Origin: a virus | Virus record (IMG/VR): IMGVR_UViG_3300050821_016407 | Span: 1-37,262 of that record | Reading direction: 5' to 3' (one strand) | Length of the DNA: 37,262 nt | Part shown: positions 3,145 through 25,778 of the stretch, in pieces | Position numbering within the stretch: position 1 is the first letter of the stretch | Layout of the letters: every line of letters begins with the position of its first letter | The notes under the pieces: model-generated | Told to the model about the DNA's origin: nothing | Databases searched by the model: none | What the model saw: the letters and a program-made list of their open reading frames with translations, nothing else | Made by a program: the position numbers and the translations under genes

Positions 3145-3176
3145 ATGCGCACGCTTGCGCATAGCGTCATGACGCT
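3145..3176. terminator. Back-to-back palindromes between convergent genes
   Basis: Between the rightward lipoprotein gene and the leftward HTH gene lies ATGCGCA-CGCT-TGCGCAT (3145-3162). It is followed at once by the perfect 14-bp palindrome AGCGTCATGACGCT (3163-3176), which overlaps the HTH gene's 3' end. Such hairpins can act as a two-way transcription terminator. No clear T-run follows, so a protein-binding role is also possible. Confidence 0.45.
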
Positions 3177-3406
3177 TCACCTTGCGTTTGGTGACGCGCC
3201 GACTCCTCCCGGGCGATCATCGCGAGATTCACCCGCCCCCCCGTAAGGGCGTGGAGCCTGACGATGACGTCGGCCCGGCGGGGAAGCCTCTTTCCGCTCT
3301 CGAAGTTCGACCAGTCGGCTTGCGCCAGTCTGGCTTTATCAGCCGCCTCTCGCTGCGAGAGCCCCATGCGGGCCCGCCACGCGCGGAGATGCTCCCCAAC
3401 CGTCAT
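3167..3406 (-). CDS. HTH XRE-family regulator (Cro/CI-like)
   Basis: A 79-residue DNA-binding protein with a complete XRE helix-turn-helix: GEHLRAWRARMGLSQREAAD, then a second helix pair with WSNFESGKRLPRR. It is about the size of Cro or a short repressor, with no separate dimerisation domain. It faces a second HTH gene on the plus strand. A 16-bp palindrome sits only 10 bp upstream of its ATG, and no Shine-Dalgarno site is visible between them. A promoter within the palindrome would give a nearly leaderless message, as with lambda cI. Probably part of the lysis-lysogeny switch; which of the two genes keeps lysogeny cannot be told. Confidence 0.75.
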   Translation of the reverse strand: MTVGEHLRAWRARMGLSQREAADKARLAQADWSNFESGKRLPRRADVIVRLHALTGGRVNLAMIAREESARHQTQGEAS

Positions 3407-4194: not shown

Positions 4195-4280
4195 GCAAAT
4201 ACGACGTGCGCCTCATCGAGGCGTGGATGCTGAGTATCGCCCGGCGGATGGCGATGCTCGCGGCGCGGAGCGGACGATGA
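4191..4280 (+). CDS. Tiny 29-residue early protein
   Basis: Begins with GTG overlapping the preceding stop (GTGA) and ends in TGA overlapping the next ATG (ATGA). These two couplings are the main evidence that it is translated. The peptide (MSKYDVRLIEAWMLSIARRM and nine more residues) is basic and could form an amphipathic helix. Below usual size limits, so easily missed. Function unknown. Confidence 0.5.
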   Translation: MSKYDVRLIEAWMLSIARRMAMLAARSGR

Positions 4281-4495
4281 GCCTCGCGGAGATGCTCGAC
4301 CGCCTCCGCCTCCACCGCGCGCGCCTGGGCGGGACCGCGCTCGCGTGTGAGGAGCGGCTCGGGACGACGGACCCGCTCACCGTGTCACTCGGCGACCGAC
4401 TCATCGAGGCCGACGAGCTCTTTCTGCTGGCCCATGCGTACGAGGCTGATTCGGTCGCGCGCGAGGTGCTGGCCATTGCGACGAGGGGACAATGA
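4277..4495 (+). CDS. Hypothetical helical protein
   Basis: A 72-residue, mostly helical, acidic protein (MSLAEMLDRLRLHRARLGG, later DRLIEADELFLLAHAYEADS). The ATG at 4277 overlaps the TGA of the 29-residue gene. An in-frame start further upstream would overlap that gene fully, so I prefer 4277. Its TGA overlaps the ATG of the nuclease gene, so the two are translationally linked. No conserved domain recognised. Association with the recombination module is by position only. Confidence 0.6.
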   Translation: MSLAEMLDRLRLHRARLGGTALACEERLGTTDPLTVSLGDRLIEADELFLLAHAYEADSVAREVLAIATRGQ

Positions 4496-5394
4496 AGACG
4501 TATGTTCTCGAGCACAAGACGACTTCCGACGATATCGGCTTAGGCTCCGTCTATTGGACGAAGCTCACGCTGGACCAGCAGATTTCGAACTACATGGTCG
4601 GCGCTCGCTCGCTCGGATACGAGCCCGACGGCGTCCTGTACGACGTGCTTCGAAAACCGGCGCTCCGCCCCCTCGAAGCGAACAGCAAGCGGAAGGTCGC
4701 CGAGTCGCCGCTCGAGTACATGCAGCGGTGCCTCGACGATATCGCGAGCCGGCCGGACTACTACTACCAGCGCGGTGTGGTCGTTCGGTTGGCCGACGAA
4801 GAGCGCGAGGCGGCGGCGGACCTTTGGTCGACGGCCGACGCGATTCGACTTGCGCAGAACGCGCAGCAGTGGCCGCGCAACGTCGACTCGTGCGAGCAAT
4901 ACCATCGCCTATGCGATTACTGGCCCGTGTGCTCGGGGCAGACGCCAATCGAGGCCCCCGCTTTCGAGCGCGTGCCGGCACATGCGGAGCTCGATGCGCA
5001 TCGCCACTTGCCGCTCGTAACGACGTCGAGCGCTCGATCGTTCCGAGCGTGCGCGCGGAAGTACTACTACGCGTACGTGCTTGAGCGCCGGCCGCGCGTC
5101 GCGGACGCTCGCTCATTCGGCAGGCGCGTTCACGCCGCGCTCGAAGTGTGGACACCCACGCACAATCTCTCTGCAGCGCTCGCGGCGGTCGCCCTCCCCG
5201 TTTTGGACTTCGAGACCGCCAAGCTGAACGCGATGCTGACCGGGTACCACGCGCGATGGGCAGACGAACCAATCGAAGTCGTCGCCGTCGAAAAGGAGTT
5301 CTGCACCGATCTCGTCAACCCCGCCACGGGCGCCAAGAGCCGGACGTTCCAGCTCGCGGGCAAGCTCGATGGTCTCGTTCGAAAGGCAGCTTGA
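4492..5394 (+). CDS. Circularly permuted RecB-like Fe-S PD-(D/E)XK nuclease
   Basis: A 300-residue exonuclease-type protein with its halves swapped. It starts with what is normally the second half: E7-x-K9 (LEHKTT), the Q30-x3-Y34 motif, and three cysteines C134, C141, C147 (VDSC, HRLC, WPVC). Then comes what is normally the first half: TTSSARSF-RACARKYYYAY with C187, G210, H214 (GRRVH), and finally D293 (AGKLDGLV). All active-site residues and four Fe-S cysteines of the AddB/Cas4-like class are present, but in the order ExK-Q-CCC-C-H-D. The start has GAGGGG before ATG 4492, and upstream coding is an unrelated gene. Directly followed by Sak4, so it probably makes single strands for annealing. 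Confidence 0.75.
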   Translation: MKTYVLEHKTTSDDIGLGSVYWTKLTLDQQISNYMVGARSLGYEPDGVLYDVLRKPALRPLEANSKRKVAESPLEYMQRCLDDIASRPDYYYQRGVVVRLADEEREAAADLWSTADAIRLAQNAQQWPRNVDSCEQYHRLCDYWPVCSGQTPIEAPAFERVPAHAELDAHRHLPLVTTSSARSFRACARKYYYAYVLERRPRVADARSFGRRVHAALEVWTPTHNLSAALAAVALPVLDFETAKLNAMLTGYHARWADEPIEVVAVEKEFCTDLVNPATGAKSRTFQLAGKLDGLVRKAA

Positions 5395-5397
5395 GTC

Positions 5398-6363
5398 ATG
5401 GCCAACGTCGTTCAGATTCCCAACAATTCCCCGCGCCGCAAAGCGCTCGCGAGCGTCAAGCGCGGCGTTCTCTCCGCCCCTCTTCGGGTGCTCATCTACG
5501 GCGCCGAGAAGGTCGGAAAGAGCACGTTTGCGGCCGGCGCGCCGAAGCCGGTTTTCATCGGCGCCGAGTCGGGCACCGTCAACCTCGACGTCGATCGCGT
5601 CCAGCCGGCGAATTGGAACGAAGCTGTCGGCTTCATCGAGGACATGGCGACTGAAGAGCACCCGTACAAGACGCTGGTGCTCGACCCCATCAACTGGCTC
5701 GAGCCCATGTGTTGGGCAAAAGTGATCGAGCTCGAGGGCAAGGGCTCGCTCAACATCGAGGAAGTTGGCGGCGGCTTCTCGAAAGGCTACGAGGCGGCGC
5801 TGAATCCGTGGCGCGAGATGCAGCTTGCGCTCGAGCGTTGCTGGACGCGCGGCATGAACGTCGTGCTTTGCGCGCACGCGCTCGTGAAGAATTTCAAGAA
5901 CCCGCACGGTCCGGCATACGACCGTTTCGAGATTGCGATGCACGCGAAGGCAGCGGGCGTCTTCAAGCAATGGGTCGACGCGGTCCTTTTCGCTGAGCTT
6001 CAGACATTCACGAACGTCGACAAGCGCACGAAGCGCGTCACCGGGGTCACGTCGGGCGCGCGCATCATTCACACTATGCCGAGCGCCGCATACGACGCGG
6101 GATCGCGGTGGAAGCTTCCCGAAGAGCTGCCCCTTTCGTGGGACGACTTCGTAGGCGCCGTCGAATCCGAAAAGGGCCGCGGCGCAGAGCTGCTCGCGCG
6201 CATCGACGCCATGCTCGACGAGCTTGGCGACGACGCAGCGAAAACCGCCGCGCGTCCGTTCATCGAAAAGCACAAGAGCAACGCAGACCGGCTCGCGGAG
6301 CTCGCGAATCGGATCGCCATCAAGATCGAAGAGAAAAAGGCAAAGGAGGCCACGGCGTCATGA
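5398..6363 (+). CDS. Sak4-like RecA-fold ATPase (single-strand annealing recombinase)
   Basis: A 321-residue ATPase. Walker A is GAEKVGKST (about residues 40-48) and the Walker B region is TLVLDPI (about 84-90). A later LCAHAL stretch fits the sensor position. This architecture matches phage nucleotide-binding proteins of the Sak4 type, which are RecA-core-only proteins that promote DNA annealing, often with an SSB. The C-terminus is a helical, charged tail. It lies 3 nt behind the nuclease gene, and its TGA overlaps the ATG of the SSB-like gene, so the three form one recombination cassette. The exact subfamily is by memory of motifs, not a search. Confidence 0.75.
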   Translation: MANVVQIPNNSPRRKALASVKRGVLSAPLRVLIYGAEKVGKSTFAAGAPKPVFIGAESGTVNLDVDRVQPANWNEAVGFIEDMATEEHPYKTLVLDPINWLEPMCWAKVIELEGKGSLNIEEVGGGFSKGYEAALNPWREMQLALERCWTRGMNVVLCAHALVKNFKNPHGPAYDRFEIAMHAKAAGVFKQWVDAVLFAELQTFTNVDKRTKRVTGVTSGARIIHTMPSAAYDAGSRWKLPEELPLSWDDFVGAVESEKGRGAELLARIDAMLDELGDDAAKTAARPFIEKHKSNADRLAELANRIAIKIEEKKAKEATAS

Positions 6364-6872
6364 GCGATGTTCAGGCGGGATTCTACAAGGGGCGCGGCAT
6401 CGCCGGGTCCGAACAGTACGGGGTTGCCGGCACGGGCACGGACCAGATTGCGGTCGACGTCGACGTCCCGTCAGTTGGTCGCGCTCTGACCGTGTTTCTC
6501 TATTTCTCGGACGGCGCCGCGCCGTATGCGATCGAAAAGCTGCGCGCGATGGGTTGGCAGGGCAACGACCTTGCGAACCTCGTAGGCATCGATGCGAACG
6601 AAGTCGACGTGTCCGTAAAGTACAAAGAGTACCAGGGCAAACAGCGGATAGAGGTCGACGTCGTTGCGGGCGGCGGCGGTCGCGTGAAGCTCGAAACAAC
6701 GATGAGTCACGCGCAGAAGGCAGCCTTCGCCGCTCGGATGAAGCCTTTCGTCGTCGGCGCGAACAACCTCGGCGCATCTACCCAACGCCCAGCGCCGGCC
6801 CGTGCCCCGGCCCAGCGCCGCGAAGGCGCGTACGACCCTGGGCCGCCCCCAGATGACGACTTGCCGTTCTGA
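6360..6872 (+). CDS. Single-stranded DNA-binding protein (SSB-like)
   Basis: A 170-residue protein starting at ATG 6360 (ATGA overlap with Sak4). The N-terminal two thirds are beta-rich with repeated VDV/EVDV strands, as in an OB fold. The end is a Pro/Ala/Arg-rich linker followed by the acidic tip PDDDLPF, which is nearly the DDDIPF tail by which bacterial SSBs recruit partner proteins. Many phages put such a protein next to Sak4 and a nuclease. The fold is inferred from the tail and context; sequence similarity of the core to SSB is not obvious. Confidence 0.65.
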   Translation: MSDVQAGFYKGRGIAGSEQYGVAGTGTDQIAVDVDVPSVGRALTVFLYFSDGAAPYAIEKLRAMGWQGNDLANLVGIDANEVDVSVKYKEYQGKQRIEVDVVAGGGGRVKLETTMSHAQKAAFAARMKPFVVGANNLGASTQRPAPARAPAQRREGAYDPGPPPDDDLPF

Positions 6873-10519: not shown

Positions 10520-13048
10520 TCAAGCGGCGGGCGGAGGGCCCTGTGTTGCGGCGAATGCGCTCTCCGCGCTTGGGCGGTCTTTGATCTTCCCCCGCGGCGG
10601 CTTCTGCGACGGCGGGCCCGATGGCGGCGCAGATGGCGCGTAGGCCGCCTGCAACGTGCGCACGCGCGCGCCATCGGCAATCGGATCGAGCGGCATGCCG
10701 AGAAAACGCGAGACGCTCTGCCGCTCCGCCGGGGGAAGCTTCACGTCCGGGTGGGCCGCGTGAAAGTCGAGGACCTCCTGCCGCATCATCCCGAGCACGT
10801 GCGGATAGATGGTCTGCGCCGCGTCGAGATGCGCATCGGACAGCGTCCCGCTCGCGACGTGCTCGAGCAGGCGCATCGGGTTGGCTACGATTTCGGCCTT
10901 GTCGTGAAAGTCGAGCTTCTGTTGCGCCGTCGGCTCCCAGTCGTTTGGGGCGAACGGCGCTGGGGGCGCGGGGGCGCGCGGAATGGCCGCGTGGAGGTAT
11001 TGGACCGTCTGCGCCATCTTCCCCTGCCATGCATCCGCGACGTTCGGAGCGGTCCGCGCGAGGGGGCCAGAGAGCGCCGCCGTGGACGCCGCAAGCGCTT
11101 GCGGATTGCCGACGAGCGTCTCGAGCTGGCTTCCGAGCTTCGCCACGCTCTGGTCCGGGGAGAGGCCCGTCGTCGAGCCAAGCAGCGACGTCATATGCGC
11201 TTGGCTGCGTGGCGCGGTTGCCTCGATGCCTTCGGACGCGAGCCGGCGCACGACGGCGCGCACGCCGCCCATCGTCGCCGCAAGGCGCTTTCCGCTCTCG
11301 CTCGCGAGCACGCCCGCAAAGACGTCTGGCCCCTCCTTCGCTGCGCGCTTGGCGATAGCGCTGAGATACACGAGCCCACGGTTTTCGGCCCACCGCTTCG
11401 CGAGAAAGTCGAGCGCCATTCCGGCGGGCCGCGCGAGCTGCTGTCCAAACATCGCCCCGGCGGGGCCGCCGAGCGCGGCGCCGATGCCCGTTCCAGCGGC
11501 CTGCACCGCCGCGCTCATCGGGCCGTGGCCCATCGTGAGCATGCTGGACAGGCTCATGTACCGGTTGCCGACGTCCTGGCGGTCGAGGATGGCCGCAAAC
11601 TTCTCCAGCTGCGAAAGCTTCGCGTAGGCGGCTTTGCTCTTTACGAGCGCGCCGACGAGCTCGGGGTTTTCACTGGCCGCGGCAACGGCGTCCGCCGCCT
11701 GGTGGACGTGATCGCGCACGACTTGATAGGCAGCGTCCTTGAGCTGATCGAGCGCCGTCACGGTCTCTACGCCGCGTGCGCCGCCTTCGTTCTGCGCGCG
11801 CGTGATCGGGTTGACCCACTTCCGACGAAGGGCGCTCGCGAAGTTCTGCGCGTCTTCGAAGGAGACGACTTTCTGGGCATTCTCGAGCGTCGTCGTCGGA
11901 AGCGCATGCGCGGAGGCGATCACTTGCTCGAGCGCGCGCGCCTGGTCCGCGTTCATCGGCATGCGCATCTCGGGCGTGTCAAGCGCGTTGCGGAGCTCCA
12001 CGGCCAAATCCATCGGCTGAATCGCATGCTGCGCCGCGTCAGGACTGCTTTTCAGGGCGCCGTCGAGCTTTTCGATCGTGTCCCCGATCTCCCCGCCGAC
12101 TTGGTCATGCATCGCCTCGACGGCATCTCCGATGTCCTGGCGCGACATGCCGGGTTTGAGCAGCCCCGACTCGTGAACGAAATTGCCGAGCTCTTGAATC
12201 CGATCCTCGCTGAGCCCCTTTAGCGCCGAGCGCTCCGCCCCCAGCGCCTTGAGGCCGCGCGCGTTCGCGAACCGGTCGAGCCCCTCGCGCGTCGCGGGGT
12301 TGTCCAGCGCTTCGCTCGCCCGCTCCCCGATGGCCCCGACGCCACTCCCTACGAGCTGCCCAGCCCCACCGAGCACCGCCCCCGCCCCCATGCCCCAGAG
12401 AAGCGTCTCCGCGGCCTTCTGCGGGTCTCCGAACGCCGCGTGCACGAGCGCCTGGGGTGACGCCATGAGCGCGCCCTGGGTCGCGTAGTTGACGGCTGTT
12501 CCGGCCAGCTTCGTCGCGAGCGACGCTTCGGCAATCTCCGCCGCCGGAACGATGCCACGCGCGGCGGCTTGCCCGATACCCTCGACGGCGCTGAAGAGGC
12601 CTCCGGTCGCCAGGGCCGGCGCCGCGATGCCGATGGCCCCGCCGAGCGTGCGCGCCATCGAATGGTAGTCGTCCGCCGCCTTGCGACGGAGCGCCTCGTC
12701 GGGTGTCTCGGTATGCTCGCGGATGGCGTCGAGCGCGCCGAACGAAGCCTGATTGACCGCGCTCTCCGCGCCGCTCTCCAGTGACCCGACGATGCCCTTC
12801 GCGGCCTCTTCGTGGCGGACCTGGTGCGCCTCCTCTTCGTCGTGCGAGAGCAGGCCGTACTTGCCCGAGGCGAGCGCGCTCGCGACCTTCTCCGGCGCGG
12901 CCTTGTAGATGGCGCCGTCCGCACCCTTGAGCGCGACCGGCCCCGCGTCCGCGTCGAGCGCGTAGGCGCCCGAGACGAGGCCCGCGTGCACGTCTTCGGG
13001 AGACGCGTCTACGGGCTGGCCGGTTTGGCGATCGAAAACCTGGGGCAT
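10520..13048 (-). CDS. Large internal virion / DNA-ejection protein candidate
   Basis: An 842-residue Ala-rich protein, one of the largest in the phage. The N-terminus has two related short modules (PEDVHAGLVSGAYALDADAG and APEKVASALASGKYGLLSHDEE in part). Later come several membrane-active Gly/Ala segments (GGAIGIAAPALATGGLF, GMGAGAVLGGAGQLVG, GTGIGAALGGPAGAMFG) between long helices. This build is usual for podovirus internal proteins that leave the capsid and form a channel through the envelope. It lies after the fibre genes and before lysis genes. No lysozyme motif seen. Function inferred. Confidence 0.55.
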   Translation of the reverse strand: MPQVFDRQTGQPVDASPEDVHAGLVSGAYALDADAGPVALKGADGAIYKAAPEKVASALASGKYGLLSHDEEEAHQVRHEEAAKGIVGSLESGAESAVNQASFGALDAIREHTETPDEALRRKAADDYHSMARTLGGAIGIAAPALATGGLFSAVEGIGQAAARGIVPAAEIAEASLATKLAGTAVNYATQGALMASPQALVHAAFGDPQKAAETLLWGMGAGAVLGGAGQLVGSGVGAIGERASEALDNPATREGLDRFANARGLKALGAERSALKGLSEDRIQELGNFVHESGLLKPGMSRQDIGDAVEAMHDQVGGEIGDTIEKLDGALKSSPDAAQHAIQPMDLAVELRNALDTPEMRMPMNADQARALEQVIASAHALPTTTLENAQKVVSFEDAQNFASALRRKWVNPITRAQNEGGARGVETVTALDQLKDAAYQVVRDHVHQAADAVAAASENPELVGALVKSKAAYAKLSQLEKFAAILDRQDVGNRYMSLSSMLTMGHGPMSAAVQAAGTGIGAALGGPAGAMFGQQLARPAGMALDFLAKRWAENRGLVYLSAIAKRAAKEGPDVFAGVLASESGKRLAATMGGVRAVVRRLASEGIEATAPRSQAHMTSLLGSTTGLSPDQSVAKLGSQLETLVGNPQALAASTAALSGPLARTAPNVADAWQGKMAQTVQYLHAAIPRAPAPPAPFAPNDWEPTAQQKLDFHDKAEIVANPMRLLEHVASGTLSDAHLDAAQTIYPHVLGMMRQEVLDFHAAHPDVKLPPAERQSVSRFLGMPLDPIADGARVRTLQAAYAPSAPPSGPPSQKPPRGKIKDRPSAESAFAATQGPPPAA

Positions 13049-13049
13049 G

Positions 13050-13142
13050 CTACTGTTGCCTCAAGGCCGCGCCGACATCGGCCAAGCAATAACGCGACGG
13101 GCTAGAGGTCTCACCGCTCCCCGTCACCGGCGCAGAGCCCAT
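13050..13142 (-). CDS. Tiny 30-residue protein
   Basis: ATG 13142 is preceded by GGGAGGGGG, a strong ribosome site. The frame (MGSAPVTGSGETSSPSRYCL and ten more residues) ends in TAG at 13050-13052, one base before the ATG of the 842-residue gene. Ser/Gly-rich, no domain. It may be a small virion component or translational leader. Confidence 0.45.
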   Translation of the reverse strand: MGSAPVTGSGETSSPSRYCLADVGAALRQQ

Positions 13143-13179
13143 GGCCCCCTCCCGATCGATGTTTGGGTGGGAAGCCAAT

Positions 13180-14991
13180 TTATTGGACCTCGTCCCGCTC
13201 GAGCGCGTCGTCGGGCGCCGAGGCCGCTCCACCGCCGCCGGCCTGGAGTTGCTGTAATTGAATCTCGAGTGTTCGTTTCGTCGCGTTCAGACGCGCCCCA
13301 GTGGGGTCCTGGCCGACGAGCCCGGACACGTTGTGCTCGAGCGGATCGCCAGGGATGAGCGACTGGTACTGCTTGAGCAGCTCAGGACTTAGCCGCGCGC
13401 CCATAGCCTTCGCGAAGTTCGTGCGCGTCGCTTCTGCGATGGCCGCCGCTTCGGCTTTCTGGTCCGGACTTCGAATGAAGCCCGCGTTTTGGCGGAGCGC
13501 GATGAGCTTGTTCACGCCGTCGAGCGCAGAGCGCACGGACGCGAGCTGACCGGGCTGGCCGCCGTCCTTCGTCGGCTTGGCGAGCTCGGGATTCGAACCG
13601 CCCTTCACCAGGCCGTATTCGCGCGCGGCCTGTTCGCGCGACGCTTCGGGGGTGATCTCGTGCCCCGCCTCGCGCGCTTTGTCCGCGATGGCCTGCGCGC
13701 GCTCCGTCACCATCTTCGGGGTGACCGTGTTCCCGCCGCCGACGGGCGCTTCCGCCGCCTTGTAGATGGCGAACAGGCGATCGTTTAGCGCGGCCACTTT
13801 CTCGTCGCGCCGGCCGATGAGCTCCTGGCGCATCGCTTCGAGCTTGGTCTGCGCGTCCGCGTTTCCTTGGAACGTCGCCGCCCGGCGCGCAATGTCGTTC
13901 GAGGCCACCGTATATGCGCTCATGGTCGAGTCGCGCTCGGCTGCGAGCATCGCGCTTTGCTGATCAAACCCCTGCGCGTTTGCCGTCATCCGCTTGCCGA
14001 GGACGTCGAGTTTCGCGGCCATGTTCGAGCGCTGCGCGTCGATGTCCGCGGTGATGGCGTCCTCGATGATCTTCCCCGCGTAGTTTTGGCCGCCCTGCCC
14101 ATTCGGGCCGAGCGCATGCGCGCTGAAGGCGCCGAGGCCGATGGCCACCGCTGCGCCGATCTTCTGCGGCGTCGACATGTTCTGGTAGTAGCGATTCGGG
14201 TCGACCCCCTGCGCGCCGGCCTGCGCGAGCGCTTCGTCGAGCTTCGACTGCCGCGTCTTGGTCTCATCAACAAGTCGCGCGCGATGCTCGTCGTCGCGCT
14301 GCTTTTGCTGCACAAATTGTTGATGGGCGATGGCCGCGTCTTCGCCGAGCGCGCGCGACTGCTCCGAAGCGGAGTCCGCGAGCGTCTGGAGATGGCCGAG
14401 CGCTTGGGACGTGACGTCGGCTTGCTCCTGCCCCTCTTCGCCGAGCGACTTGGCGTACTCGCGCGACGCGGGCGACATGCCAGCCGCGTGCGGCACGCTT
14501 CCGCCGCCACTCACGAACTTCGCCAGCGCATCGTCGACGGGCGAACCGCCAGCGCTCGGCGCGGCGCCAGCGCCGGCCGGCGGAGGCGTGAGGTTCCTCG
14601 GCGTTGCCGGCGCAGCAGTGCCGCCCGGCGCGCCCCTCTTGGCGAGCATCGCCGCGAGCGCAGGATCGCCCGCTGCGGCATCGGCCGCTCCTGCCGCTCC
14701 CGTCGCCGCCGGATTGAACGGGGCCTGTGGCGGGAGCCCCGCGGCAGCGAGTCTATCGGCCGTGTTGTTTGCCGGCGCGGGTTGCGCCGCCTGCGCCGCC
14801 CGCCGCGCCTGGAGCGCCTGGAGCGCCGGATCGGGCTGACCCGAGCCGCCGGTGAGCGGGTCGTACCCACCGGGCGACGCGGATGCGCCGCCCATCTGTT
14901 GCAGCCAGGCGGCTTGCTGCGCGGGCGATACCTGCCCCGAATTGACGAGCGCCTGAATCTGCGCCGGAGTCGGAAGCGGAGCGTTGTTCAT
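13180..14991 (-). CDS. Coiled-coil internal or tail-associated protein
   Basis: A 603-residue protein starting MNNAPLPTPAQIQALVNSGQ. The N-terminal quarter is Ala/Pro/Gly-rich and of low complexity. Residues about 180-420 form long Gln/Ala/Glu-rich helices, with an N-terminal-proximal stretch IGAAVAIGLGAFSAHALG that is hydrophobic. The ATG overlaps the TGA of the long fibre gene (TGATG). Two large helical proteins in a row (this and the 842-residue one) after the tail genes match the ejection-protein set of podoviruses. No enzymatic motif seen. Function inferred from place and composition. Confidence 0.5.
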   Translation of the reverse strand: MNNAPLPTPAQIQALVNSGQVSPAQQAAWLQQMGGASASPGGYDPLTGGSGQPDPALQALQARRAAQAAQPAPANNTADRLAAAGLPPQAPFNPAATGAAGAADAAAGDPALAAMLAKRGAPGGTAAPATPRNLTPPPAGAGAAPSAGGSPVDDALAKFVSGGGSVPHAAGMSPASREYAKSLGEEGQEQADVTSQALGHLQTLADSASEQSRALGEDAAIAHQQFVQQKQRDDEHRARLVDETKTRQSKLDEALAQAGAQGVDPNRYYQNMSTPQKIGAAVAIGLGAFSAHALGPNGQGGQNYAGKIIEDAITADIDAQRSNMAAKLDVLGKRMTANAQGFDQQSAMLAAERDSTMSAYTVASNDIARRAATFQGNADAQTKLEAMRQELIGRRDEKVAALNDRLFAIYKAAEAPVGGGNTVTPKMVTERAQAIADKAREAGHEITPEASREQAAREYGLVKGGSNPELAKPTKDGGQPGQLASVRSALDGVNKLIALRQNAGFIRSPDQKAEAAAIAEATRTNFAKAMGARLSPELLKQYQSLIPGDPLEHNVSGLVGQDPTGARLNATKRTLEIQLQQLQAGGGGAASAPDDALERDEVQ

Positions 14992-17900
14992 CAGGCCCTC
15001 GCTCCCGAGCGCAGAAGCTCCTCGAGCCGGTTCTGTCGCTCGTTCAGGTACGCGAGCCCCGCGAGCTGCGTGCCGGCCATCTTGCCGTAGTCGACCTGCT
15101 TGTAGCCGGTGCTCGGATTCGTCTCGACGAAGCTCTTGCCGAGCGGCGTGGACTCGATCTCCTGCGCCATCGGCGACACGAACGTGCCGTGCCCTGCACC
15201 CGGGAGGTCCGGCTCTTTGTACCGGTACTGGTGCGCGTGGAGCGCATCCAGGAAGTCCTGCATGTTGTCGGGCGATGGATCGCGGACGCTTGTCTTCGCG
15301 TCCTCATCGGAGATGCCCGCGAGCGAAAGCGTCTTTTGCGGCGCCGTCGTCGGGCCCGACACGCTCGAGTATTGCGGCGCCGGTTGCCCATTCGGCAAGT
15401 ACGGCGGGACGGCCGGGTACGACTGCGAGGCCGGGTAGAGCGCGGCGGAAGGAGCCCTGACGCTCAGCGCGCCAGCCGGAAGCGCATTGAACATCGCGCT
15501 CGGGGCGAGCGTGTTCATCACGGGGAGCGGGCCCACCGGCTGATTCGTCGCGTTAATCGACGTCGCTCGAGCGGGGGTCGGCGTGCCGCCGGAAAACCCG
15601 AATGCGGAGACGCCGCCGGGGCTCGTCATGCCCGCGCTCTGCCCCACGCCGCCCGCGTAGGAGGCCATGTTCCCCCAAAGCCCGCTCTGCGGCGTGGAGG
15701 GCCCAGCGCCGCTCGACGGTCCGCCCGTGAAGACGGGCGCTGCGCCGGTCGAGACGCCGCCCGTGTTCCCCGGGCCGCCGCCATAAATGCCGCCGCCGTT
15801 GCCCTGCCCGTACCCCTGCGCGTACGGAGGAGGCGCCGGCATCTGCCGATCTGTCGCCGCCGAAGGGGCTTGGCCGGTCTGCATGAAGGCGTTGTTCGTC
15901 GCCCCTCTCGATGCGCTCGCGCCTTGCTGCGCGCTCGCCTGTTGGAGAAACGCCTGCATGCCGCGGTTGCCCGAGATGACGTTTTCCTTTGCTTCGTCAT
16001 CGCTCGTCGCGACGGCGTTCTGTTGATCGAGGTCCGAAATCTGCTCATTCGTCGCGGTCTCGCCAGTACCCTGCGAAAGTTGCATGCCGTGGCTAGTGGT
16101 CGCTAAACCGCCGCTCGATCCGGCGAGCGTTTGGAGGAGACCGCCGACAAACGGGACGGCGCCGAGGATTCCGCTCTCGAGCGCCGCACCTGGCGTCAAG
16201 CTCGTTTGCTTCGTCTCCGTCCCGAGGGAAAAGTGAAGGTCCGCCGTCGGATCAATCGACTGGTCACCTTTCGAAGAGCCGAGCTGCGAAAGAAACGAGC
16301 GCATCATGGGATTACCGCCCTCGATGCCCTCCTTCACGTTTTCGTCAGAATACGACGTCTGCCCCGACAAAAGGCCCGTGCTGCTACCGCTAGTCGTCGG
16401 GAATCCAATACTCGATGCGGGAGCCGTAAAGCCTAGAGAGATATCTCCGCTGCCCGAGTCTCCGCCCGTATTGGCGCCACCCGACGGCCCATACGTGCCG
16501 CCTCCCGAGCTACTCGGGTTGGGAAGGCCGCTTGCCGATGCGGCCGCGTTGATTCCTGCCGTGCTGCTCGGATTGCTCGAGCTATTCGCTGCGTTGATCG
16601 CTGCGCCGCCGAGCCCCGCCAGCCCACCGAAGATGGCGCTCGTGAGATTTGCGTTTGCATTGGCGGCGGCTTGGTATGCCTGCGCGTTGATCTGATTGTT
16701 GCCGAGTTGTTGCTGGACGCCTAGCTGCTCGCTCGCGAGCTCCGCCGAGCGATTCGCCTCACTCACGCCCGTCTCCGCGCCGAGCCCCGCGAGCGTGTTC
16801 TGCGAGGCCGTGTTGTATGCATTCTCCGCCGCCGTCTGATTCGCAAGCCCGTACTGACTTGCGGCGGACAGATTCGCGAGGTCGGTCTGCTGCGCGTTGC
16901 CCAGATTGGCGAGCGTCATCGCCTGCGCATTGCCAACGTTCTGGCTCGTCATGTTGTTCTGCGCGAGGAGGTTGGCGAGCGTCATCGCCTGCGCATTGCC
17001 CGCGTTGTATTGCCCGGCCGTATTCACCGCGCCCTGATTCGCGAGCGTCGCCGCTTGCGCGAGCTGCGCATTCGCGAGCGACGTGTTCTGCGCATTCGTC
17101 GCATTGAATTGGCTATTCCCTTGCGCGAGCTGCGCGTTCGCCGCGTTCGCCGCCTGCTCGTCCGACGTGTTGAACTGCGCCATCTGATTCGCGGCGCTCT
17201 GATTCGCAAGGTTCGCCGTCGACGAGAGGCCCGCCTGCGCCGTGTTGTACGACTGCGATTGCCCGCGCGCCGTGCCCGCGACCGTGCCGAGCGCTTGCTG
17301 CGCAGCCTGCGTCTCCTGCGCACGCTGAATGCCCATCTGGGCATTGAGCTGCGCCTGCGCCTGCGCGCTCTGATTCGCCGCCATCGTCTGCGCCAGACCG
17401 GCGTTCATCGCGCCGCCGCGCTGCGAGCCCAGCACGGCGAGCTGATTCGCCACCTGTTGTTGCTCGCCCTGTTGGAGCTGCAGGTCCGCCGCGCTCGTCC
17501 CGCCGCCGTTGGCCTGTGTTTGCAGTGTGTTCTCGAGATTTTGCTGCACGGCGAGCTGGGAGGCGTCGCCTGCCGTCGAGATTTGCGGCGCGCCCGTCAT
17601 CGTCGCCGGGCCCGCCGTCGCGGCGCCCATTAGCGCTCCTTGCGACTGCGCCGCGCGCGCCTGCGCAGCCTGCGCGAGGGCCGCCGAGTAGCTCGAGGCC
17701 TGCCCTTGCGCGGCTTGCCCGTACGCTGCCTGCCCCTGCGCAGCCGATGCCGATGGCGCGGTCACATTGTAGTTTTGCGGGGTCCCGTTGGCGCCAACGA
17801 AGCTGGAGAGGTTGTTCCAGACGTCGTTTAGGCCGTAGTTTCCGTCGGTCTGGCTGGGCGCGCCGGAGAGCGCGGACGGGTTGAATCCCGCATAGCCGGG

Positions 17901-18089
17901 GGCGTAGTACTGCCCCGTGCCGAAGATGCCCGTGGACTGCCCGCTCGCCGCGGGCGCAGGCTGGGCATTTCCGTTGCCCTGGGGGGCCGTCTGATTCGTT
18001 GGATTGTACGGGCTCTGATTGCCGAACGGGTTGTTGTAACCGCCGAGATAGTTCGCACCGCCCGCGTTGCCGGTATAGCTGTTTGCCAT
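14991..18089 (-). CDS. Long tail fibre with S74-type C-terminal chaperone
   Basis: A 1032-residue protein. The N-terminal 560 residues are Ala/Gln/Asn-rich with short repeats around NAQAMTLANL and ANQSAAN, likely a fibrous helical stalk. The C-terminal 106 residues look like the peptidase S74 intramolecular chaperone: SDEDAK at 927-932, a helix with FLDALHAHQYRYKEP, VSPMAQEIEST, VDYGKMAG, and a terminal coil NERQNRLEELL. In this family the chaperone trimerises the fibre and cuts itself off with a Ser-Lys dyad spaced as S-x4-K. Two more SDxxxK motifs lie at residues 581 and 696. Adsorption role inferred. Confidence 0.7.
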   Translation of the reverse strand: MANSYTGNAGGANYLGGYNNPFGNQSPYNPTNQTAPQGNGNAQPAPAASGQSTGIFGTGQYYAPGYAGFNPSALSGAPSQTDGNYGLNDVWNNLSSFVGANGTPQNYNVTAPSASAAQGQAAYGQAAQGQASSYSAALAQAAQARAAQSQGALMGAATAGPATMTGAPQISTAGDASQLAVQQNLENTLQTQANGGGTSAADLQLQQGEQQQVANQLAVLGSQRGGAMNAGLAQTMAANQSAQAQAQLNAQMGIQRAQETQAAQQALGTVAGTARGQSQSYNTAQAGLSSTANLANQSAANQMAQFNTSDEQAANAANAQLAQGNSQFNATNAQNTSLANAQLAQAATLANQGAVNTAGQYNAGNAQAMTLANLLAQNNMTSQNVGNAQAMTLANLGNAQQTDLANLSAASQYGLANQTAAENAYNTASQNTLAGLGAETGVSEANRSAELASEQLGVQQQLGNNQINAQAYQAAANANANLTSAIFGGLAGLGGAAINAANSSSNPSSTAGINAAASASGLPNPSSSGGGTYGPSGGANTGGDSGSGDISLGFTAPASSIGFPTTSGSSTGLLSGQTSYSDENVKEGIEGGNPMMRSFLSQLGSSKGDQSIDPTADLHFSLGTETKQTSLTPGAALESGILGAVPFVGGLLQTLAGSSGGLATTSHGMQLSQGTGETATNEQISDLDQQNAVATSDDEAKENVISGNRGMQAFLQQASAQQGASASRGATNNAFMQTGQAPSAATDRQMPAPPPYAQGYGQGNGGGIYGGGPGNTGGVSTGAAPVFTGGPSSGAGPSTPQSGLWGNMASYAGGVGQSAGMTSPGGVSAFGFSGGTPTPARATSINATNQPVGPLPVMNTLAPSAMFNALPAGALSVRAPSAALYPASQSYPAVPPYLPNGQPAPQYSSVSGPTTAPQKTLSLAGISDEDAKTSVRDPSPDNMQDFLDALHAHQYRYKEPDLPGAGHGTFVSPMAQEIESTPLGKSFVETNPSTGYKQVDYGKMAGTQLAGLAYLNERQNRLEELLRSGARA

Positions 18090-21000
18090 CAGGACATTCC
18101 GATCTGGCGTGACGTCGGGAGGTTTTTGTTTCCGCCGCGCTTCACTCCGACGACGAGGGAGAGCGCCGAGAGAGAGAATCCCGCGCCTCCTGGCGCGCTT
18201 TGGCTATCGGTGATCGTGAGCTGGAACGACTGGCACTTTTTCAGGACGTCGAGGCGCCACTGGTAGTTGCTCGGGTTCGACGGCGCGGTGGGCACTTGAA
18301 TCGTCGCGGCGATCGGCGTCGAGACGCTGTCGTAGTCGACATGCGCGGATAAATTCATCGTATGCGCGCTGATGTACTGGCCGAGCACATAGACGTGATA
18401 GAGCCGCTGGTAGCCCTGGATCGCTGTGGGGTTGAGCCACGCGGTCACGAGCTCGAAAGGGATGGGCGCCCCCGCGTCCGTGAAGGTCGCCGGGGTCTGG
18501 ATGTAAATCTCCCCCGTGGTCGCATTGGAAAGCGCGAGGACATCGCCGCCGCCGTGGTAGACATCCGAATCGGTCGCCAGGTGCGGCGTACCAGTGAAGG
18601 TCGACCACTGGTCGTAGTAATAGTCGTACGCGAGCGCGGTCCCGCCGGGACTCGTAAAAATGACCCACTGGTCAGGAATGAGCGCCGCGGCTGTGAATTG
18701 GATTCCCTGGCCGGAGCCGGGCTTCGTGAACGACTCGACGGGCGCGCCCTTGTACGTGCAATTCAGCGAGCGATCGAGCAGGTAGATGCCGCCCGTATTG
18801 CTCTGGAACATGAGCCCCATCTGGGTGAGGACGATGGTGTTTGCCTGCGCGCATCCGATGTTGCCAGTTGGCAATTGCGTGGGCGATCCAAGGTCGCTCT
18901 GCGCGCCTGTCGCGTCGGGTCCTTGACCCGTGATGTAGAATATCGAGTTCTTTTTGAAAATAAAAAAGTTCGCGTCCATTCTCGCGATGGCCGTAATCGG
19001 GCCACCGTCCGGGTCGACGCGGAGATTCAGCGCGGCGCAGAACTGCGCAGGCGCGCCCTCGATCGACTGCTGCGAATAGAAGAGCGTATACGGGTCGTCC
19101 GTGGTGTTCGTCCACACGCGGTTCGCGTATGTCGCAATGAGCGTGCACGCGGGCGGCGCGAAGTTCGGCAGGACGGGATTCCCCTGCGCGAGCGGCTGCG
19201 TATAGAGCAGGCCATTGCTCTGGATCGACGCGTCCGCGAGCGTGTCGGTAAACGTCGTTGTCGCCGTCAGAGGGAGTGGATAGGGATTGTACGTGGGCGC
19301 GACGGCGCTCGTAACCCGGTAGAGGAGCGTCCCACTTGCCGTCGTTCGGTACACGACGAGTCGCACCCCGGTTTTGTTCGTAAGGAAGAGCGTTGGGATC
19401 GTAATGGCGACGGAGCCGGCGCCGGCTCCGCCCACCGTAACCTGGACAGGCGGCAGTGGATTGGACGGCTCGGCGAAGCCGAACGCGTCGAGGTACTCGT
19501 AGGTTACCGAGTAGAAATAGGTCCCCGCCGCCATCAACCCGCCCGTAGTCGCTGGCGCGAAGGTGACCTCTTCGGGCCAAACGAGGAAGCCTGCCTCGAC
19601 GTACAAATGCCCGTCATACCGCTGCAGGATGCCTCCGACCGTATAGAGACTCCCATTGATGGCGGACGACAGTTGTTCGGTAGCGGACGAGAAATTCAAC
19701 GTTGTCGCGTTCACGCCGAGCAAGCTTAGAATCGTGCCGGCCTCCGTATTCGGAATGCCCTTCGCGCCATTGGCGTACACAAATACGCCGGCCGTGAGTT
19801 GCTGGCACTCGGGGACCATCCAGTCTTGATTGTTCAGGTAGCCGCCGCCAATACCGTAGAGCGTTCGGGATACGATGGTCGTCGTCGTACCGTTCCAAGC
19901 GATGCATACGTAGCACGGCTGCATTTGCGTCTGGAACGCGCAATTGATGAGAACCTGCCCATTCCACGAAAGCGGCTTGCTCGCGATGCCGAGCCCGTAC
20001 CCGATGACAACAGGCGTCGTTACCGACCCCCCGCTCGTAATCGTAAACGCCTTGAGTGTGTGTCGATAGGACTGCGAGCCGCCACCCGTCTGCACGTGCT
20101 CCGCGAACACCGTGGCTGTGCCACCGACGACGATGGCCGCCACAGCCACTGGCGTGAAGCTCGATATGGTCGTATGTATCGCCGCCAGAAACACGGCCCC
20201 AGCGCTCGTGTAAATGAGCGTCTCCACCCCAGACGAATTGTCCGCGATGGTCACCCAACAATGACTCGAGCTGTCCGTGTAACATGCGAGGCCATTGACC
20301 TGCGTTGTGCCAGAATAGGTCCAAGCAGTGTTCGTCCACACGAGCGCGGTGAAGGCTGCGTTGAGCGCCGAGACTTGTACCGTGAGGTTGCCGGCGACGA
20401 TCTTGTAGTACGCGATGAAGACAGTCCCATTCGGCGCGACGCACGCATCGAACCAGCATGGGGCAATCACGCCAGCAATGGGAGATGCCACAAATGTCAG
20501 CCCCGTCGGATTGGACGGACTGATGGTGCCCGTAGCGAGCGTGCCTCCGCCAGTATCGCATACGATGAGAATGACGTTCGCCGAGGGGACTGGAAGGAGC
20601 TTGGGTCGCCCCGCGCTGGCCCCAAAGAATCCCTGGTCGAGCACGATTGCCGTGCCCGACGCCGTATCGAACACGCTGTACCGGATGGCTCCGCGCGAAT
20701 CCTCCCACGCATATACGTCGATGCCGCCTAGGCTCGCATGGTCCGGCGAGAGTTGCTGGTAATTACCTGCGATGATGGTCTTATCGCTCTGGACGACGGG
20801 GACCATATTGCCCCGTGCGGACCACGCGTTCTCCGCTTCGATAAACGAATAGGCGCTTTTACCGTCATACGTGAGAAGCTCATTTCCGAACGCCGTGACG
20901 GCGAGCGTCGTTGCGATCGTGCCGCCCCCAACTATGCCCATCCCGAGCGCGGTATAGCCCCACCGGCGCGACACGAGCCCGGTCTGCGAAAGGATGCCGT

Positions 21001-21097
21001 TCTGTAGCGCAAGCACCTTGCCAGCGACCACCTGACTCGGGTCGGTTTTCGAGTCGATGCCGCCCGCGAAAGGAACAGCGACGATTTGCTTCTCCAC
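18089..21097 (-). CDS. Large tail/nozzle-type structural protein
   Basis: A 1002-residue, beta-rich protein with Thr/Gly/Ala-rich strands and little helix. It starts at GTG 21097 behind GGAGG. The opening, VAVPFAGGIDSKTDPSQVVA then ALQNGILSQTGLVSRRWGYT, is the pattern seen at the start of podovirus tail nozzle proteins. Repeated WXXX and FTDTLADAS-like strands suggest a beta-propeller and Ig-like folds (FAPATTGGLMAAGTYFYSVT is fibronectin-like). It follows head-completion genes and precedes the fibre, so it probably forms the tail tube tip. Family by eye only. Confidence 0.6.
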   Translation of the reverse strand: MEKQIVAVPFAGGIDSKTDPSQVVAGKVLALQNGILSQTGLVSRRWGYTALGMGIVGGGTIATTLAVTAFGNELLTYDGKSAYSFIEAENAWSARGNMVPVVQSDKTIIAGNYQQLSPDHASLGGIDVYAWEDSRGAIRYSVFDTASGTAIVLDQGFFGASAGRPKLLPVPSANVILIVCDTGGGTLATGTISPSNPTGLTFVASPIAGVIAPCWFDACVAPNGTVFIAYYKIVAGNLTVQVSALNAAFTALVWTNTAWTYSGTTQVNGLACYTDSSSHCWVTIADNSSGVETLIYTSAGAVFLAAIHTTISSFTPVAVAAIVVGGTATVFAEHVQTGGGSQSYRHTLKAFTITSGGSVTTPVVIGYGLGIASKPLSWNGQVLINCAFQTQMQPCYVCIAWNGTTTTIVSRTLYGIGGGYLNNQDWMVPECQQLTAGVFVYANGAKGIPNTEAGTILSLLGVNATTLNFSSATEQLSSAINGSLYTVGGILQRYDGHLYVEAGFLVWPEEVTFAPATTGGLMAAGTYFYSVTYEYLDAFGFAEPSNPLPPVQVTVGGAGAGSVAITIPTLFLTNKTGVRLVVYRTTASGTLLYRVTSAVAPTYNPYPLPLTATTTFTDTLADASIQSNGLLYTQPLAQGNPVLPNFAPPACTLIATYANRVWTNTTDDPYTLFYSQQSIEGAPAQFCAALNLRVDPDGGPITAIARMDANFFIFKKNSIFYITGQGPDATGAQSDLGSPTQLPTGNIGCAQANTIVLTQMGLMFQSNTGGIYLLDRSLNCTYKGAPVESFTKPGSGQGIQFTAAALIPDQWVIFTSPGGTALAYDYYYDQWSTFTGTPHLATDSDVYHGGGDVLALSNATTGEIYIQTPATFTDAGAPIPFELVTAWLNPTAIQGYQRLYHVYVLGQYISAHTMNLSAHVDYDSVSTPIAATIQVPTAPSNPSNYQWRLDVLKKCQSFQLTITDSQSAPGGAGFSLSALSLVVGVKRGGNKNLPTSRQIGMS

Positions 21098-21110
21098 CGC
21101 GCGCCTCCTT

Positions 21111-21419
21111 TCAGAAAACGAAAATGTCCGCCTTGCACGAGGCGGTCGCTCCCAGCATCAGATATTTGGACGGGTCGGGGCTCGTGCCCGCGGTGATCGA
21201 CGAAGCGGCCGTTTGATTGCCGATCCAGAAAGAGAGGTAATTGCGACCGAGGCCGTGAACGACGAGGTTGTTCCCCGCCTTGAGCGAGATATTCGCCATC
21301 CACTTTACGCCGTTGAGCGGATTTTTGATGAGCGTGTTGAGGGGCTCTCGGATGGCCTCCTGAATCAGGTTTAGGTCCTGATCCGTCGTCTTGATGGGAG
21401 AGAATTGCTTGAGCGCCAT
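21111..21419 (-). CDS. Small tail or head-tail structural protein
   Basis: A 102-residue protein starting MALKQFSPIKTTDQDLNLIQ. It has a helix (LIQEAIREPLNTLIKN) and then beta strands with LVVHGLGRNYLSFWIGNQTA. Together these resemble small phage proteins that decorate or close the tail. It is between the adaptor-like protein and the large nozzle-type protein. Upstream codons to 21473 would read into the neighbour, and ATG 21419 is preferred. No established name that I can support. Confidence 0.6.
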   Translation of the reverse strand: MALKQFSPIKTTDQDLNLIQEAIREPLNTLIKNPLNGVKWMANISLKAGNNLVVHGLGRNYLSFWIGNQTAASSITAGTSPDPSKYLMLGATASCKADIFVF

Positions 21420-21423
21420 GGTC

Positions 21424-22173
21424 TCAGCGCCCCCCAGAGAAAGGTCCCCAGCCGCCGAAGCCCGCGTTTGCACGTACGCGCTTCACATCGGCGATCTTCC
21501 CCGGCTGATTGTCGTCGCGCACCGTGAACTGGCGCAGGACGCTCGACTTGAGCTCCGCCATGTCCTGCGCGATGAGCGCAGCCGTCTCGAGCGACTCTTC
21601 GCGGATGAGCGCTTTTCGTGCTGCGAACATGATGATGAAGTCCTGAATCCCGTTCGTTGCCATCCACGTGCCATCGATCGTGTCGGTCTGATTCACGAGC
21701 GGCTGGAAGGCCGGGATGTACTCGAGCTTGTAGCTGCCCGCGGAGCTGTCCGGCGGCAGAAATTCGAGCACATTGCCGACGAGCGAGTAGTACGCGGCAA
21801 AGTTGCCATAGAGCGGGTTGATGGGGGGGGCCGCGTGGAGGTTTCGCTCGATGCGCGAGTTCAGCCTGAAGCACGGAGCGTAATACGGCCCCGAGCCGAC
21901 GACGCCGATCTGCCGCGAGACAGAGCGAAGCTTGTCGAACGTCGGTACGGCGGTCTGAAACCCGACGGTGATCGAGTTGCCGGAGACGCCGCCCGCGAGC
22001 GTGAAGAGGTACGTAGCGAGATTGTAGTCCTCGTACGTTTCGGTCAGCGCGCGATAGAGCTCGCCCGCGCCGGAGTTGACCCATTCGGTCCACGTCGGCG
22101 TGTCGAGCGTCGACGCGTTGACGCGGTCCGCGAGTCGCTGCGCGCCGAGAATGAGGTCCGAAAGCGCCGTCAT
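21424..22173 (-). CDS. Head-tail adaptor-like protein
   Basis: A 249-residue protein. The ATG at 22173 overlaps the previous TGA (ATGA); a TTG two codons earlier is less likely. The start, MTALSDLILGAQRLADRVNA, then WTEWVNSGAGELYRAL, is the helical beginning common to podovirus adaptor proteins under the portal (P22 gp4-like or tail-tube-A-like, about 200-250 residues). A beta-rich middle and a C-terminal helix set (FIIMFAARKALIREESLETA) follow. The neighbouring portal, capsid and nozzle genes agree. Family by architecture, not by search. Confidence 0.6.
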   Translation of the reverse strand: MTALSDLILGAQRLADRVNASTLDTPTWTEWVNSGAGELYRALTETYEDYNLATYLFTLAGGVSGNSITVGFQTAVPTFDKLRSVSRQIGVVGSGPYYAPCFRLNSRIERNLHAAPPINPLYGNFAAYYSLVGNVLEFLPPDSSAGSYKLEYIPAFQPLVNQTDTIDGTWMATNGIQDFIIMFAARKALIREESLETAALIAQDMAELKSSVLRQFTVRDDNQPGKIADVKRVRANAGFGGWGPFSGGR

Positions 22174-22517
22174 GCCCAAACGACCTGGAGAGTCTCGATG
22201 CCGTTGGCCGTGATGACAAACGAAGGGATGGCGCCCGCCGCGAAGCCAATCGAGGCCGGGAAGCTCGCGCCGGGCCCGAAGGGCACGCCCGTGTCGCCCG
22301 CGATCCCCTTGAGCGTCTTGGTGATGACGGAGCCGATGGGCGGGTAGATCGTGAAGCCCTGCGCGGCGGCAGGGACCGTAACCGTCACGCTGCCATTCGC
22401 GGTCGTGACGGTGCTCGGCGGCAACGCCGACGTGTTGACGTTGGAAACGGTCTGCTGGGCGTTCAGCCCATCGCCCGAAACCGTCGTCGCGATCGTCGTC
22501 GTCGCCGTCTTGCTCAT
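22170..22517 (-). CDS. Small beta-rich virion protein
   Basis: A 115-residue protein, Thr/Val/Gly-rich (MSKTATTTIATTVSGDGLNA, later FTIYPPIGSVITKTLKGIAG). It has no charged clusters and many predicted beta strands. Found between capsid and adaptor genes, it may be a decoration or spacer protein. The ATG at 22517 overlaps the previous stop. No family recognised. Confidence 0.6.
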   Translation of the reverse strand: MSKTATTTIATTVSGDGLNAQQTVSNVNTSALPPSTVTTANGSVTVTVPAAAQGFTIYPPIGSVITKTLKGIAGDTGVPFGPGASFPASIGFAAGAIPSFVITANGIETLQVVWA

Positions 22518-22765
22518 CGCTTCTTTCCCGTCAGCAGGAGCGCCGGATGGCCACCGCTTCCGCTGTCGTCGTCGCCCCCGCCGTCCTTCTGGCAGATGGC
22601 GTGCGCGTCGCTGAAGGCCTGCGCCGCGCCCTTGGCGTCCCCCGACTTGACGGCGCCGATGAAGGCGCTCATTGCGTCCTCCAGGGCGCCCCCGTAATCG
22701 GAGCCGCCCTCGTCTCCGTCCGGTTCGTCGCCGCCCTTGCCGAGCAAATCTGCGAGCGAAGGCAT
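22514..22765 (-). CDS. Small acidic protein of the head region
   Basis: An 83-residue protein with two Gly/Asp-rich acidic parts (GKGGDEPDGDEGGSDYG and KDGGGDDDSGSGG) around one helix (AFIGAVKSGDAKGAAQAFSD). Such a form is seen in small head proteins of unknown role; it could bind cations or capsid. The ATG at 22765 is one base after the previous stop; its TGA overlaps the next ATG. Confidence 0.55.
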   Translation of the reverse strand: MPSLADLLGKGGDEPDGDEGGSDYGGALEDAMSAFIGAVKSGDAKGAAQAFSDAHAICQKDGGGDDDSGSGGHPALLLTGKKR

Positions 22766-22766
22766 T

Positions 22767-23264
22767 TCAGGGCACCTGTGTTCGCTTGAGGAGGAGCGTC
22801 AGCCAGAAGCCGACGTTCGCGGGGGGATTGGTGAGCGTGCCGGCGCCGATGCGGAACGAGACCTTCACGGTCTGCGCGGCGATGGTCGGGTCCGTACCGG
22901 GTTGCACGCCCGCGTCCGGGCTCGTAGTGTTGGCGCGCACGTTGGCGTTGACAAACGGGTCGATCGTCGTCGTCGCGCCGGGGTCCTGCGAGATGACCCA
23001 AGCGCCAAGCAACGCGAAGTAGGCATTGTCCAGCGTGAACTGGTAGATGCCCGTCCCGGTATGCGGCTGCGTGATGATTGTGCCCGCCCCGATGGCCTTC
23101 TGCGCTCCCTTGAGGAGCGTGTACGGGCCGGTTCCGGGGGGAGCGTTCGTCGGCTTCGCGGGCAGCACGTTGGCAGAGCCGTCGAGCGCCACGAAACCGG
23201 AGATGAGAACGACGTCGTGTTCGTAGTGTTTGACGAACGAAGTGAGGAGTGCGTTGTCACCCAT
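22767..23264 (-). CDS. Virion protein, possible capsid decoration
   Basis: A 165-residue, beta-rich, Thr/Gly/Pro-rich protein, directly behind the major capsid gene. It begins MGDNALLTSFVKHYEHDVVL and has strands such as GIYQFTLDNAYFALLGAWVI. The position directly after the capsid gene is typical for decoration or head-stabilising proteins, but also for minor capsid components. No catalytic motif. No family recognised. Confidence 0.55.
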   Translation of the reverse strand: MGDNALLTSFVKHYEHDVVLISGFVALDGSANVLPAKPTNAPPGTGPYTLLKGAQKAIGAGTIITQPHTGTGIYQFTLDNAYFALLGAWVISQDPGATTTIDPFVNANVRANTTSPDAGVQPGTDPTIAAQTVKVSFRIGAGTLTNPPANVGFWLTLLLKRTQVP

Positions 23265-23276
23265 GGTCGGCTCCGA

Positions 23277-24593: not shown

Positions 24594-24619
24594 GACCGGC
24601 TCCTCTGGGAGGACCGGTC
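24594..24619 (-). promoter_or_regulatory. Hairpin over the capsid gene ribosome site
   Basis: On the coding strand the capsid ATG is immediately preceded by GACCGG-TCCTC-CCA-GAGGA-G-CCGGTC. The 6-bp and 5-bp stems are separated by one bulged base with a 3-nt loop. The only Shine-Dalgarno-like sequence, AGAGGAG, lies in its 3' arm. It may limit capsid translation, stabilise the message, or be a weak terminator after the scaffold gene. Confidence 0.55.
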
Positions 24620-24638
24620 ACGCCGTCGCGCCACTCGT

Positions 24639-25769: not shown

Positions 25770-25778
25770 GGGGGACTT

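Follow-up and report, generated by a model that had tools for sequence, protein, structure and literature searches.

According to published data, iron-staple enzymes, Cas4 and AddB among them, contain one N-terminal and three C-terminal cysteines that bind a single cluster (PMC3466216), and the termini of a canonical member should therefore adjoin in space. The family residues follow one another along the chain in the order C-H-D-ExK-Q-CCC, and one of these enzymes, Sso0001, is a 5'-3' exonuclease of single-stranded DNA (PMC3466216). The genes of canonical phage relatives immediately precede that of a Sak4-like ATPase and usually also that of a single-stranded DNA-binding protein (SSB), as in the DNA described here; in HK620, Sak4 acts as an ATP-dependent annealase, and the neighbouring SSB stimulates it (PMC5928155). 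For circular permutants a model of origin through gene duplication has been put forward (PMC3320104). It is highly probable that the gene considered below is a natural circular permutant of such a phage nuclease, presumably active like its canonical relatives and most likely formed through tandem duplication and trimming.

The window, i.e. the whole stretch of DNA analysed, is a linear 37,262-bp IMG/VR viral record obtained as a metagenomic contig. Its recombination module contains the following features (permuted types A and B are defined below):

4223..4495, plus strand: small open reading frame overlapping the nuclease start (ATGA), without family match
4492..5394, plus strand: circularly permuted iron-staple PD-(D/E)XK nuclease (type B), 300 aa, recognised from its frame, PF12705, PHROG_1218 and AlphaFold2
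4492..4935, plus strand: canonical C-terminal half of the nuclease, now first, with the ExK strand (E7, K9), Q30/Y34 and Cys 134/141/147, assigned by identity to canonical C-halves
4936..5022, plus strand: fusion linker made of the canonical C-terminal tail and the canonical N-terminal lead, assigned by comparison with canonical tails and starts
5023..5391, plus strand: canonical N-terminal half, now last, with C187, G210/H214 and D293 on the final strand, assigned by identity to canonical N-halves
5398..6363, plus strand: Sak4-like RecA-core single-strand annealing ATPase (AAA_24 E 2e-40; PHROG_124 E 3e-37)
6360..6872, plus strand: phage SSB-like protein, 170 aa, with acidic tail DDDLPF, assigned by its position after Sak4 and by homology

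The nuclease frame begins with MKTYVLEHKTTS, ends with GKLDGLVRKAA and has in ATG 4492 its sole ATG/GTG/TTG start after the preceding stop codon. This ATG overlaps the stop of the upstream frame as ATGA and is preceded by an RBS-like GAGGGG, and Sak4 starts 3 nt after the nuclease stop codon. With stop and flanks also intact, the sequence-only reading was right to describe the gene ends as clean and the gene as not cut off. The two halves of the nuclease and Sak4 have similar GC content by codon position (first half, 0.63/0.42/0.83; second half, 0.70/0.50/0.78; Sak4, 0.64/0.43/0.82). The label of PHROG_124, matched by the frame at 5398..6363, is "Sak4-like ssDNA annealing protein". Homologues of the SSB-like frame adjoin Sak4 in related loci, one being annotated as SSB in Tunturi phages, and its end DDDLPF resembles the acidic tails described with the SSB of HK620 Sak4 (PMC5928155). 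Elsewhere in the window, a small HTH repressor-like gene (HTH_31; 3167-3406, minus strand) lies upstream of the recombination module, and large genes almost without PHROG match occupy the minus strand at 10520-27713, where only weak matches to portal/head-tail adaptor and virion proteins were registered, pointing to a poorly known phage lineage.

It had been proposed earlier that the halves of this protein are exchanged at the hairpin between the D and ExK strands, and both the frame and the exchanged order could be confirmed directly along the translation. The motifs run ExK - QxxxY - CCC - linker - C - GxxxH - D, so that E7-x-K9 (LEHKTT), Q30-x3-Y34, C134, C141 and C147 precede C187 (CARKYYY), G210-x3-H214 and, at the very end, D293 (GKLDGLV). 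Every signature residue of the RecB/AddB/Cas4-type iron-staple PD-(D/E)XK enzymes occurs once. The catalytic set GxxxH, D, ExK, QxxxY is complete (H214, D293, E7/K9, Q30/Y34), and, judged from sequence, all four cysteines of the putative staple (C187 together with C134, C141 and C147) are present and conserved. Among 131 proteins compared (92 canonical, 31 type A and 8 type B) nine of the 11 signature positions are invariant (C187, G210, H214, D293, K9, Q30, Y34, C141 and C147), C134 deviates in a single case, and Asp takes the place of E7 in eight type A proteins and one canonical. Both PF12705 (PDDEXK_1; E 8e-11, 42.8 bits vs a curated gathering cutoff of 22) and PHROG_1218 "exonuclease" (E 8e-23) match in two stretches, the best of which is the N-terminal part of the profile found at the C-terminal end of the protein (for PHROG_1218, profile positions 6-150 at residues 172-298); canonical L174 covers positions 7-355 of PHROG_1218 in one stretch. 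Since its motif order along the chain departs from that of the family, the window protein is classed as a permuted derivative rather than an ordinary member. Neither does it stand in a cas1/cas2 adaptation module as a Cas4 would, its immediate downstream neighbours being Sak4 and SSB.

Rotation of the window protein at the linker raised its global alignment score against L174 from 405 in native order to 658 (51% identity over 288 columns), which, compared with 12±6 for shuffles, excludes chance. The rotated alignment continues across the D/ExK hairpin, interrupted by one gap only (GKLDGLVR-KAAMKTYVLEHKTT vs GKLDVIVRDQRDGRVYKVEHKTS). Type B proteins aside, the closest sequence relatives of either half are canonical phage nucleases, with identity of roughly 40-55% to canonical syntenic nucleases for the C-half and 36-48% to canonical nucleases for the N-half. 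The linker, FERVPAHAELDAHRHLPLVTTSS, corresponds to a canonical C-terminal tail (..NVHEELT..) with an N-terminal lead of canonical type (LPVLTNS) behind it: the old tail ...FERVPAHAEL is joined in the window to the old lead LPLVTTS, and L174, for comparison, terminates with "...VHEELTDDAAYAA*" and starts with "MTTRLPVLTNS". Nearly the whole canonical tail (HxEL) and then the lead (LPxLTxS) have been kept. A phmmer search of PDB with the window protein gave no match.

AlphaFold2 predicted one compact domain for the window protein (mean pLDDT 96.5, pTM 0.90), canonical L174 being modelled with pLDDT 95.9 and pTM 0.89. Alignment A10 was used for folding, and alignments mixing in canonical N-halves or M2 fragments (see below) were excluded as misaligned; one sequence of the phages collection was omitted from the structure prediction. 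The models were compared through the order of secondary-structure elements and not by superposition. The DSSP order of the window model, E(ExK) H H E H H E H H E / H H E H H H E E(D), is an exact rotation of that in L174, H H E H H H E E(D) / E(ExK) H H E H H E H H E with one more short helix at the C-terminus, and the D strand (residues 282-298) is the last element of the window model. The PD-(D/E)XK fold is thus present by prediction only, and the two unrelated domains that would have refuted a permutation do not appear in the model. Comparison with AddB, Cas4 and RecB-like folds, as had been suggested, was positive for the canonical protein: the L174 model matched Cas4-family ACE1 (best), AddB, RecE and Cas4 SSO0001 in PDB with E-values from 8e-8 to 9e-5. 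The permuted model has no significant PDB match although its canonical relative has them: nothing was found below E 0.001, and the best match was to part of RecE (E 0.16), as is expected of a sequential search with a permuted chain. In BFVD it found viral PD-(D/E)XK proteins (best E 1.3e-12). A sequence search with the canonical profile reached AdnAB-type helicase-nucleases (E 2e-4) and 4ic1. Annotators should therefore be aware that a profile or fold search working sequentially along the chain will recognise just one half of a protein of this kind.

About 240 loci, some of them overlapping, were obtained by scanning viral and genome contigs. Four HMMs, one per module, were derived from clean canonical seeds (M1, C..GxxxH; M2, ..D; M3, ExK..QxxxY; M4, CCC) and searched against every frame in these loci. 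A single-sequence scan of viral_contigs, with patterns that were too specific, gave no relatives, and tblastn against plasmids gave no match. The canonical order M1-M2-M3-M4 was registered in 123 frames, including some near-copies. Searched part by part in this manner, the window protein again displayed the exchanged order M3-M4-M1-M2 (type B), which seven other IMG/VR contigs share at 44-51% identity (L116, L121, L123, L148, L207, L208 and L209). A second permuted order, M2-M3-M4-M1 (type A), with the chain opened after the GxxxH helix, is commoner (63 frames). It was found in one locus (L235) of a genome from the phylum of a Myxococcales MAG and in the isolated Tunturiibacter phages Tunturi_1 and Tunturi_2, which are circular complete records; their annotated "exonuclease" (L003:2941-3975 and L002:3019-4056, respectively) is a type A permutant. 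Being isolated soil phages with a named host, they offer a good experimental system. In 7/7 type B entries (five contigs, the window being counted three times), 60/63 type A and 90/123 canonical frames, Sak4 follows the nuclease at a distance of at most 1.5 kb. The permuted gene fills the same slot before Sak4 as the canonical one.

None of the frames in these loci contained any module twice, the seven other type B contigs gave a single match each to the N-half, and among the roughly 240 loci there was no intermediate with a tandem or partial duplication. The small frame at 4223..4495 had no module-HMM match and is not a remnant of the nuclease. An M1-M2-M3-M4-M1 arrangement in L046 turned out to be false: it originated from HMM seeds collected by a loose regular expression and was gone with clean seeds. 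Two further observations concern other features of these loci. Between M3 and M4, in the loop before the YxxR strand, type B proteins L207, L208 and L209 and canonical L227 carry a Cys-rich, zinc-ribbon-like insert (e.g. CKECKKKNP..C), which differs from the insert of other members (RVRTKDGKKWRE). In Tunturi_2 the permuted exonuclease is immediately preceded by a phosphoadenosine phosphosulfate reductase-like gene (L002:2124-2867), which Tunturi_1 lacks in this position.

On trees of rotated sequences the architecture labels need 4-5 changes. L150 (type A) groups with canonical L163 (61% identity) and, together with L151 and L196, is a candidate for an independent and relatively recent permutation, as far as sequences alone can tell. 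L148 (type B) joined canonical L111 in one tree and was unresolved in another, and the trees disagree on whether type B is one clade. In AU tests one origin for all permutants was marginally rejected (p=0.0445), and one origin was not rejected for all type A (p=0.23) or all type B (p=0.34). Two events are thus a conservative count, and three to five are possible. It is about as likely as not that circular permutation has a natural hotspot in the iron-staple nucleases of phage Sak4 modules, with three or more independent events (type B, the main clades of type A, L150-like type A beside L163 and perhaps L148) and two opening sites, made possible by an Fe-S staple that joined the old ends in advance.

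Based on these data one can assume that the ancestor was a canonical gene (C - GxxxH - D - ExK - QxxxY - CCC) just upstream of sak4-ssb, which most likely was duplicated in tandem and fused. Trimming would then have left a unit from the D/ExK hairpin of the first copy to the same hairpin of the second. The old termini, already held by the four-cysteine staple, would now be linked by a loop of about 30 residues with the hairpin open, and the permuted chain would fold to the same domain as the canonical one. Permutation at this hairpin is supported by the rotated alignment, the predicted single domain and the recurrence of the order. A staple tying the old ends together fits the evidence too, the cluster itself being inferred. 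The tandem-duplication origin, also part of the sequence-only reading, is favoured by a linker that retains nearly complete canonical ends; with no intermediate in hand the route stays inferred and is not proven against fission and fusion. Given the same predicted fold, the enzyme is expected to work as the syntenic canonical nucleases do. Its inferred role in phage recombination and repair would be metal-dependent resection of DNA ends, supplying SSB and the annealase Sak4 with single-stranded DNA.

Relocation of the termini to the central hairpin might instead have altered function, for instance docking to Sak4/SSB or preference for DNA ends, and persistence of the permutation in several diverged phages is compatible with that. 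We consider it unlikely, because canonical, A and B forms share slot, partners and catalytic residues, as near-neutral variation would. Fission of the gene followed by re-fusion in the other order, without a tandem copy, is quite improbable: the D/ExK hairpin is a plausible split point and a tandem intermediate is missing, but split genes were not found either, and joining of a near-whole tail (HxEL) to a lead (LPxLTxS) is what end-to-start tandem fusion predicts. There is very little to suggest that the permutation broke the enzyme and left a decaying relic; no activity has been shown, but catalytic and cysteine residues are conserved across diverged permutants, the long open frames keep their overlapping start and conserved slot before Sak4, and the single-domain fold is predicted with confidence. 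A mis-joined contig can practically be dismissed, even though the window is a linear metagenomic contig for which no near-identical second one was seen, since start, stop and flanks are intact, independent contigs have the same order, an artefact would need a cut in the same hairpin every time, and this reordering and a second one cut elsewhere, the latter present in complete phage records, recur in many phages.

Natural permutation of a presumably active nuclease by duplication and trimming remains the preferred reading. It cuts the catalytic core, and the D and ExK that belong to a single active site come to lie near the two termini of the polypeptide. One gene slot, with the ancestral and two permuted orders across many phages, provides an evolutionary series on the origin and cost of permutation, and a testable rule is offered that a metal staple between termini licenses it. 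In the open literature searched there was no report of a permuted RecB/AddB/Cas4-type or PD-(D/E)XK nuclease, though earlier mention is not excluded; a study of Cas4 phylogenomics that treats pfam12705 phage proteins has no word starting with "permut" (PMC5704561).

Among known systems, the canonical phage "exonuclease" of PHROG_1218/PF12705 encoded before Sak4 (L174, L086 and, in a Myxococcales MAG, L083) is homologous to the window protein over its full length and has the same 11 signature residues and the same Sak4/SSB neighbours, but its order is C-H-D-ExK-Q-CCC and its termini lie at the Fe-S staple, those of the window protein being in the D/ExK hairpin. Type A permutants (Tunturi_1/2, L018, L062, L150) are homologues that occupy the same slot and share the fused C-to-N linker; they differ in that their chain is opened behind the GxxxH helix, rather than in the D/ExK hairpin, and reads D - ExK - CCC - C - H. 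Nuclease domains of AddB and AdnAB have the four-cysteine staple and the RecB-type motif set, whereas the window protein is permuted and stands alone, not fused to a helicase. Cas4 proteins (Sso0001 and Argonaute-associated ACE1) share the domain and the four cysteines, yet the window protein is permuted and belongs to a context of phage recombination (Sak4, SSB) rather than CRISPR adaptation. Natural permutation among DNA-modifying enzymes is also exemplified by DNA methyltransferases with permuted motifs (Jeltsch 1999 and Bujnicki 2002, as cited in PMC3320104), noted in jumbo phages as well (PMC7824862), whose fold and activity differ from those of the window nuclease.
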